The position numbers and the translations under genes are program-made. The notes under the pieces are model-generated. The model was not told the DNA's origin, made no database searches, and saw nothing but the letters and a program-made list of their open reading frames with translations. This document shows, one piece after another, positions 35,444 through 38,311 of a stretch of DNA of 64,000 bases; within the stretch, counting starts at the first letter, position 1, and every line of letters starts with the position of its first letter. The stretch is from Alphaproteobacteria bacterium (GTDB lineage Bacteria > Pseudomonadota > Alphaproteobacteria > Micavibrionales > UBA2020), in NCBI GenBank assembly GCA_025934695.1, contig JAICWS010000002.1, positions 496,001 through 560,000 on the forward strand, given 5' to 3'.

Positions 35444-37582
35444 TTAATGCGCCCAACCGGCGGCGGGCAGCACCTGGCGCAGCGCCTCGATGCCGGAGGC
35501 GCAGCTTTCCTTCAGGCGCACCTCCAGGCCGCGCGCCTCGTCGACGCGCCTTTCGATGCAGCACAGTTCAATGCCCTCGGCCAACGCCTGCACGTCGCCG
35601 AGGCCGAACATAGCGCTCATCGCTTTTAGCTCATGCGCTGACTCCCGCATGGCGTCGGGGTTGCTTTCCCGGGCCCCTTTTTCGATGACGCCCACCAGCC
35701 GTTCCAGCTCGTGGATGCCATCGTCGATGAAGCCAACGACATATTCCCTCCCCAGCGTCTCCTCGATGCTTTGCAGGTTTTCCAGCGATACCTTCCTGGG
35801 CGCCGGCGCCGCTTTCGCCGGCGCCACCTGCTTCAGCACGGCGGCCGGCACCTGGCGGGCCATCGCGCGGAACAGGCTTTCCGGGTTGATGGGCTTGGAC
35901 ACATAATCGGTCATGCCGGCGGCCAGGCAGCGCTGCTCGTCCCCGCGCACCGCGTTGGCGGTGAGTGCGATGATGGGGATGTCTTTCCAGGCCGCGGTGG
36001 CCTTGCGGATTTCCCGGGTCGCCGTGAGTCCGTCCATGAGCGGCATCTGCATGTCCATCAGCACCAGGTCGTACTTGACGGCGCCGGCTTTGAGGAAGTC
36101 GAGCGCTTCCGAACCGTCAGACGCAAGGGTAAAACTATGGCCGCCTTTTTGCAGCAGTCCCGCGATGACTTTCTGGTTCACCTTGTTGTCTTCGGCCACG
36201 AGGATCGACAGCGGCTTCAGCTGCGGCAGGCTGGCACCGGCTTCTTTCGGCTCTTCCGCCGCACTGCGCGGATCGGCGACCGGTTCGAGCGGGATTTCGA
36301 ACCAGAAGGCGCTGCCTTCGTTCGGACGGCTCGTCACGCCGAGCTGCCCTTTCATCAGCTGCACGATCTTGCGGCAGATGGCCAAGCCAAGGCCGGTGCC
36401 GCCGTAACGGCGCGAGACCGATGAATCCGCCTGGCTGAATTCCTGAAACAATTTTTTCTGGTTTTCTTCGGAGATGCCGATGCCGGTATCCTCGACCGTG
36501 AAGCGCACCATCGGCCCGTTCTGCTCGACGCGCAGCGTCACGCGGCCCGAGGGTGTGAACTTGATCGCGTTGCTGACGAGATTCAGCAATACCTGACGCA
36601 GCCGCGTCACATCACCCCGCGCATAGGAAGGCACGTCCTTCGCGATAAGCGAGGTCAGCTTGAGTTTTTTCTCGTCCGCACGCCCCCGCATCAATGCGAT
36701 GACGCTGGCGACCAGCCGCGCGACGCTGAATTCGACGGCCTCGATGTCGAACTTCCCTGCTTCCATTTTCGAGAAATCGAGAATGTCGTTCAGGATCGTC
36801 AGCAGCGTTTCGCCGGAATAGTGGATGGTTTCGACATAGTCCTGCTGGCGCATATCGAGGCGCGTATCCTTCAGCAACGACAGGATTCCGAGAATGCCGT
36901 TCAGCGGCGTACGCACCTCGTGGCTCATGGTGGCGAGGAATTCGGATTTCGCCTTGCTGGCCGCTTCCGCTTCGGCCTTCGTGCGCTCGAGGTTGATTTC
37001 CATTTTATAGGCATAGCGGCGCAGCTGGGTATTGAGGTAGGCAAGCACTCCCACCGCGACGACCAGCGTCCCCAGCGTGAAATTCACCGAGAACATCATC
37101 GCCGCAGAGGCATGGTACGCCAGCAGATAGGCTTCGATGATCAGCACCGATCCCGCGAGCGTCACGAGGATGAAGCGCATGTTCGTCATGATGGGCACGA
37201 AGATGAACGGCAGCAGCAGGATTCCGCTGCCGAGCGTCAGCCCGTCGGGGACCAGCGACATTGTCATCGCCGTCGTCCAGCAGGTGGCCAGGAGCACGAT
37301 GCTGCCGATGGCGCAGGCATATCTGCCCATCGACGGCAGGAACGACAGGGCAATCGCCGCCGCGAAACAGAGCATCATGCCGGCGCGGATGCCAAGCGCC
37401 TGCATGAAGCTGTCATGCGTCCCGAAGTGATAATCCCAAACCAGCCACAGGGGGTAGCACATGAAGCCCATCAAGGATCCGCCGCGCAAAAACGGCAGAA
37501 AGCGCGGCGCGTCAATGCCGGCATAATTCGCCTCCATGTCAGGAGGGAGATCGACCTTCAAGGGGACGTCAAAAAATCGCAT
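35444..37582 (-). CDS. Hybrid sensor histidine kinase with REC and HPt domains
   Basis: This 712-residue inner-membrane phosphorelay protein has about six membrane helices (residues 35-185), a short coiled linker, then HisKA with the phosphorylated His at 221 ([13 protein letters not shown]) and HATPase with [10 protein letters not shown] and DTGIGIS. A receiver domain ([13 protein letters not shown]) and a C-terminal HPt ([14 protein letters not shown]) follow. There is no periplasmic domain, so it may sense a membrane or lipid-borne cue. The ATG at 37582 was chosen over a TTG upstream. The C39-like peptidase gene ends 31 bases before it on the same strand. Confidence 0.9.
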
Positions 37583-37613
37583 TATTCCAATAGACAATGC
37601 GCGGAAGCGCGGG

Positions 37614-38147
37614 TCAAGGGGCGGGCGTTCGCAGCATGCGCGCGGGCCCAGCCTTAGGCGCGGTCATGCCGATCCATTTTTCAATCGAATTGCCCGCGAC
37701 CGGCGCGAAATCGATGCACCAGCGGTCGTGGCTGCCCTTCTCGGAAATCCAGGGAATATTGTCCATCCGGTCGACGACGAGTTCGTGTTCATATGGATCG
37801 TAATAAACCGCGCGGTCGCCTTCTTTTTTCAAAAAGACGACATAATGGTCCTCGCCCTGAATGATATTGGCGATTGCCACGCCGCCGTCATAGGTATCGA
37901 GGCCGGTTTTGGAATAGGATGACAGCAGTCCTTTGCTCAAATCCTGCATGCGCGGGGCGGGCGTGCCGACCTTCGGGTCGGGCTGCGCCGCGTCGCGGTA
38001 GAAAGCGTAATCGCCGCCAAGGCCGTAGATATGCGCGACGGTCGCAAGGCAGGCGGGACCGCAGGAATAATCGTCCTGCTGGCGGACAAAGAAATCATCC
38101 GCGGCGGTGCCCGCCAGAGGAATACGGATGGGAAGTTCGTCGCGCAT
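37614..38147 (-). CDS. C39-like cysteine peptidase
   Basis: This 177-residue stand-alone protein has the papain-like C39 peptidase pattern: oxyanion Gln at 23 or 24, nucleophile Cys29 in DDYSCGPACLATVAHIYG, His101 in GEDHYVVFLKKEG and Asp117 in VYYDPYEHE. C39 domains usually sit on ABC exporters and cut double-glycine leader peptides; here there is no transporter domain, signal peptide or membrane segment. It lies 8 bases after a 51-residue membrane-peptide gene and 31 bases before a sensor kinase, all on one strand. Confidence 0.78.
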   Translation of the reverse strand: MRDELPIRIPLAGTAADDFFVRQQDDYSCGPACLATVAHIYGLGGDYAFYRDAAQPDPKVGTPAPRMQDLSKGLLSSYSKTGLDTYDGGVAIANIIQGEDHYVVFLKKEGDRAVYYDPYEHELVVDRMDNIPWISEKGSHDRWCIDFAPVAGNSIEKWIGMTAPKAGPARMLRTPAP

Positions 38148-38155
38148 CGCCAGTC

Positions 38156-38311
38156 CTAGAATTTTCCGCCCAGCATGTTAAGCATCGAGGTGATCTTGAC
38201 GCCATAGATCAGGGCGATCATCACGACGCCCGCGCCGATGAAGATGCCCGTCAGGACGATCGCCCCGGCATCGGCGTCGCCAGACTCGTCCCGAAGGAAT
38301 TTTTTGAACAT
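38156..38311 (-). CDS. Short single-helix membrane peptide, Flp-pilin-like
   Basis: The 51-residue product begins MFKKFLRDESGDADAG, followed by a hydrophobic helix (about 17-40) and ending NMLGGKF. The start resembles Flp-type pilins (basic N-terminus, RDESG, then a hydrophobic stretch), but the usual Glu-Tyr after the cleavage site is absent. It may be a pilin-like subunit or a small signal peptide precursor. ATG 38311 was chosen over an earlier in-frame start at 38341. It is the first gene of the set with the peptidase and kinase. Confidence 0.65.
   Translation of the reverse strand: MFKKFLRDESGDADAGAIVLTGIFIGAGVVMIALIYGVKITSMLNMLGGKF

Follow-up and report, generated by a model that had tools for sequence, protein, structure and literature searches.

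Layout of the locus and properties of the encoded proteins

The window, the whole stretch of 64,000 nucleotides analyzed here, comprises positions 496001 to 560000 of contig C2 in the 4.1-Mb genome G000. Three genes follow one another on its minus strand, encoding a 51-residue peptide (38156 to 38311, stop codon included; C2:534159 in the genome), a C39 peptidase of 177 residues (37614 to 38147), and a hybrid histidine kinase of 712 residues counted from the ATG (35444 to 37582). All three are where an earlier note, made from the sequence alone, had placed them, with 8 bases between the peptide and C39 genes and 31 between the C39 and kinase genes. Gaps of this size suggest co-expression, which is often linked with shared function and counts against the reading, favored below, that the genes work separately. 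A literature search of the open PubMed Central set did not find a peptide-C39-kinase gene set.

The peptide gene has a GC3 of 82% and a codon score of 0.89 bits per codon, which is above 94% of in-frame windows of neighboring genes and was reached by none of 259 stop-free windows in wrong frames; the score rules out a chance open reading frame. It is a score as would be expected of a well-expressed and useful product, a point that likewise counts against our favored reading. A hydropathy scan found one hydrophobic span (residues 17 to 35), structure prediction from the single sequence gave one helix, and the C terminus reads LGGKF. Translation, coding test, and hydrophobic span thus bear out the membrane peptide that the earlier note had described.

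The second protein exceeds the curated cut-off of Pfam PF03412 (27.2 bits versus 22) and carries the catalytic set Q23 (the oxyanion Gln), C29, H101, and D117, so that the stand-alone C39-like peptidase with a complete Cys/His/Asp set proposed earlier was confirmed. In an alignment with 14 relatives, Q23, C29, and H101 were invariant in all 15 sequences, and at the position of D117, 12 sequences have Asp and the other 3 (L007, L008, and L010) have Glu. An AlphaFold2 model (pLDDT of 91.9) had its best Foldseek matches in the PDB to the C39 domains of PCAT1 (E = 5e-6) and ComA (E = 1e-5), and on this modeled structure we are confident that the protein has the C39 papain-like fold. Since the hydropathy scan found no hydrophobic segment, the protein is probably cytosolic.

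Pfam domains of the kinase are HisKA, HATPase, receiver, and Hpt, with phosphorelay residues at H221 (HisKA), D510 (receiver), and H650 (Hpt). Its membrane part scores 24.2 against Pfam MASE8, under the cut-off of 26.2. The hybrid kinase of the earlier note therefore stands, whereas its six helices were not reproduced: a simple hydropathy scan of the first 215 residues gave four separate peaks over threshold. An origin of the genes in phage or defense systems was considered and rejected, as neither the peptide nor the C39 protein has a PHROGs family and PADLOC matches within the trio were to the kinase only.

A promoter-like sequence, TAGACA-17-TATTCT, lies ahead of the peptide gene (38402 to 38430, minus strand), at a frequency not above chance (2 such sites found versus 1.7 expected in shuffles). 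In what is presumably the leader of the peptide gene, a hairpin whose loop has 5 bases precedes TTTT (38340 to 38368, minus strand; centroid, −15 kcal/mol); taken in full, this leader RNA did not exceed shuffles in stability. Between the C39 and kinase genes, an eight-pair hairpin spans the kinase start codon and is followed by a T run (37578 to 37601, minus strand); it could be an attenuator or a chance structure. The single Rfam match (E = 0.95) was far under its cut-off and was discarded as an RNA element.

Distribution and neighborhoods of the C39 and kinase genes

The C39 gene is lineage restricted. Of 94 genomes searched in the order, 17 had it, as did 4 of 385 genomes of the class by profile search, G000 included in both counts and two of the class matches being weak (E = 3.7e-7 and 3.6e-5). 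When 84,980 species genomes were scanned with two short patterns, which may miss relatives, 12 C39 loci were returned. Relatives with the gene that carry a title are MAGs labeled Alphaproteobacteria, Proteobacteria, Rhodospirillaceae, or Micavibrio.

For every further genome among the 94 that had a C39 match, we retrieved one region, giving 16 in all. The C39 gene adjoins mdh in 7 of these and a Sel1 or DUF2336 gene in 8; in one genome (G004), the contig stops on the mdh side of C39. In this Micavibrio-related family, the stand-alone C39 gene has mdh on one side and a DUF2336/Sel1 pair on the other, and near relatives have it between the same neighbors as here, with neither peptide nor kinase. 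In other genera, the C39 gene has different neighbors. In the species of the window, the kinase gene lies behind C39 and the small membrane-peptide gene in front of it. The peptide was absent from all 16 regions by tblastn (E values up to 0.01) and by a scan for open reading frames upstream of C39, which in L038 lacked a C39 match as its starting point. The kinase was likewise absent, except for a weak match to generic domains (22%) in the same region. As far as these regions allow a test, then, the trio occurs in none of the 16, the outcome that the earlier note had named as speaking against its proposal.

Several of the regions held arrangements of their own. In genome G008, the C39 gene is present in two tandem copies (L023, 7336 to 8399). 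In genus g3, small coiled-coil-like proteins of 133 to 169 residues are encoded directly beside the C39 gene (L026, 6726 to 7133; also L029 and L033), some with proline-rich tails resembling that of C39 itself; they are candidates for a partner or substrate of C39. In L037 (6627 to 7967), a distant C39-like domain is fused to a glutathione-synthetase-like ATP-grasp domain, in a gene that lies between what we take to be relatives of grpE and dnaK.

The nearest relative, G001, has a counterpart of the kinase with 71% identity over the whole protein and 57% over the membrane part. It is found at the same place as here, beside Sel1 and DUF2336 genes and a further gene that is presumably zapE. The G001 contig starts 57 bases ahead of the kinase, and one frame of these bases ends in PGPRP and a stop codon, resembling the proline-rich tails of C39 proteins, which suggests that a C39 gene precedes the kinase there too. 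Given this tail and the shared site of the kinase, two species probably retain the C39-kinase pair. In contig C178, the nearer of the G001 mdh copies (95%) breaks off at residue 109, a point that we take as the end of that contig. This places the site corresponding to the peptide within an assembly gap, and the peptide could be there. That a C39 search found no match in the G001 assembly fits such a gap. Against the coincidental neighbors that the earlier note had offered as part of its alternative to the circuit stands a C39-kinase neighborhood that seems common to G001.

Among the 94 genomes of the order, the membrane part of the kinase was found in G000, in G001, and in two distant members (G052 and G056; 26 to 27%) that carry the MASE8-like part on GGDEF proteins instead of a kinase. 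A profile of the membrane part matched 10 of 385 class genomes, G000 included; by a simple pattern, two of the nine others have GGDEF, two have a kinase motif, and the rest have neither. At those loci, no C39 or peptide matches were found within flanks of 1,500 bases.

Possible origin of the peptide and proposed double-glycine maturation

The peptide has no family in Pfam, NCBIfam, or PHROGs and no convincing relative among the 94 genomes of the order or the 385 genomes of the class, and it was not found in viral contigs. Plasmids likewise gave no convincing relative, with three weak matches (E values of 4 to 6), two of them annotated Flp. We inspected 14 of the matching loci in class genomes. 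No alignment was obtained for 3, and most of those that aligned sit inside long frames of other proteins and were rejected. Five of the inspected loci share one family of 265 to 276 residues, presumably the flagellar rod protein FlgG. The match at E = 3.5e-4 proved to lie within a membrane protein of 471 residues and was also set aside.

The N terminus of the peptide, MFKKFLRDESG, is a leader of the Flp/Tad prepilin type, with Gly before the hydrophobic helix. A matrix built from 14 Flp leaders was applied to 8,125 N termini with ATG starts, a set enriched in Flp loci, and only 14 reached the score of the peptide, namely, the peptide itself and 13 Flp pilins. The peptide scored 18.6, within the range of the matrix's own leaders (10.3 to 31.4), two of which fall under it. 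Meanwhile, the pattern F-[hydrophobic]-x-D-E-[S..]-G occurred at 5 sites in all in six genomes and gave no information on pilins. Several Flp pilin genes of G000 lie in its tad/flp locus (C3:1262865-1265148), which includes a prepilin-peptidase-like gene by our assignment, and a lone Flp gene lies outside that locus (C3:228939). A plain Flp pilin was rejected as an identity for the peptide: the leader test was positive, and the profile test failed. There is no match to Pfam Flp (PF04964), and an HMM built on 28 of the group's Flps gave the peptide 3.3 bits, a score equaled by 831 of 5,000 segment-wise shuffles and 230 of 5,000 full shuffles. Furthermore, Gly16 and Ala17 occupy the positions of Glu+5 and Tyr+6, and the part of one report available to us describes these Glu and Tyr residues as crucial for assembly of the Tad pilus and not for expression or processing of the pilin (PMC11067988).

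It is conceivable that the peptide arose by duplication and divergence from the Flps of the genome, shares their prepilin peptidase, and serves the tad system encoded elsewhere as a minor pilin, its neighbors being coincidental. Several of the genome's own Flps share its length of 51 residues and its type of leader, and it has weak full-length similarity to Flps of G000 and G001, to which the two plasmid matches annotated Flp may be added. Flp-like pilins without Tyr+6 have been described from Gram-positive tad loci, in the portion of that source that we consulted (PMC3244431). Set against this are the HMM score, within easy reach of segment-wise shuffles, the lack of Glu+5 and Tyr+6, and a place on contig C2 when the Flp cluster is on C3, and we consider such a role unlikely. 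Of the proposals in the earlier note, descent as a divergent Flp pilin is, tentatively, the favored one: the leader and the presence of a tad/flp locus elsewhere in the genome agree with it, and the two missing residues, the Flp score, and the position outside that locus do not.

The earlier note's main proposal was a dedicated signaling circuit in which C39 matures the peptide and the hybrid kinase senses the product. Gene order and spacing and the complete catalytic set of C39 would fit such a circuit. However, the sole Gly-Gly of the peptide (Gly48-Gly49) is followed by just two residues, KF, so that the layout of leader, Gly-Gly, and cargo is absent. With the N terminus inside, moreover, the Gly-Gly would face away from a cytosolic enzyme, and relatives have the C39 gene with neither peptide nor kinase. 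The circuit also calls for a peptide exporter. The genome has four C39-family matches, counting the protein in the window; the other three are a 196-residue stand-alone protein and two that we take from their printed frames to be ABC proteins. These three hold other residues at the catalytic Cys and His positions (judged by eye), so our search of the genome yielded no C39 exporter with an intact active site. The circuit is thus not supported, and we regard it as very unlikely. Less credible still is a variant in which C39, a leader cutter turned C-terminal trimmer, would clip Lys-Phe off LGGKF and the kinase would read the bare Gly-Gly peptide, making the three genes a membrane sensor; the Gly-Gly does follow hydrophobic residues at −4, −7, −12, and −15, a pattern that matches the consensus of double-glycine leaders. 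As a separate observation, a stand-alone C39-like protein without the catalytic Cys adjoins an ABC exporter at C7:118513-119430, and the C39-like domain of that exporter is just as degenerate.

Interpretation and comparison with known systems

Altogether, we favor the reading, with a probability of roughly 0.6, that the trio came together recently, and specifically in this lineage, around a single old gene, C39, and that its members would work separately and form no new circuit. The three genes may share a transcript and yet act apart. The C39 protein would be a soluble, cytosolic cysteine peptidase acting on some other substrate, as must hold in relatives without the peptide. The kinase may read a membrane-borne signal via its MASE8-like part and pass phosphate from H221 to D510, H650, and then an unlinked response regulator. 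The peptide would insert with its N terminus inside, and the genome's Tad prepilin peptidase may cleave it after Gly11. Without Glu+5 and Tyr+6, it presumably cannot assemble as an ordinary Tad pilin, and it would either stay in the membrane as a free helix or form a minor component of pilin origin.

A functional link between peptide and kinase is possible. The peptide might bind the membrane part of the kinase and tune it, as MgrB does its partner, with C39 a bystander or a remover of the peptide. Peptide and kinase are both membrane bound, are both new to the lineage, and flank the old C39 gene. MgrB itself, a membrane protein of 47 residues, is an established inhibitor of a sensor kinase, according to the part of the source that was available (PMC8404706). 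This analogy has to contend with a peptide that shows no sequence likeness to known kinase regulators and has no Pfam or NCBIfam family, with co-occurrence of peptide and kinase in a single genome, and with a prepilin-like leader that such a regulator would not need; we think it improbable, somewhat more so than a minor pilin. If the peptide does influence the kinase, this poorly studied group of bacteria would add another example of a sensor kinase tuned by a small membrane protein.

The locus is of interest mainly as a warning: in a single genome, three suggestive genes placed close together gave the impression of a circuit, and relatives show one old gene with two new neighbors. The part most worth a later look is the family of stand-alone C39 proteins, which is conserved among relatives of Micavibrio and has no known substrate. 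It has its fold, Cys-His-Asp set, and sequence profile in common with the C39 domains of PCAT1 and ComA. Unlike them, it stands alone, with neither an attached ABC exporter nor a known double-glycine substrate, and in our searches it was found mostly in one alphaproteobacterial order.

Similarly, the kinase shares the order HisKA-HATPase-receiver-Hpt with kinases of the TorS, BarA, and ArcB type, but among the matches listed it scores under the NCBIfam cut-offs of each named kinase and differs in its MASE8-like membrane part, which in two members of the order occurs on GGDEF proteins. The peptide resembles MgrB, which inhibits PhoQ, in having about 50 residues and one membrane span and in being encoded near a kinase, but has no shown sequence likeness to it. 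MgrB is not known to be encoded in one operon with a peptidase. With the Flp type IVb pilins (PF04964), the peptide has in common its length, a prepilin-type leader, and a single hydrophobic helix after that leader, and it differs from them in lacking Glu+5/Tyr+6 and a profile match and in lying outside the tad locus.
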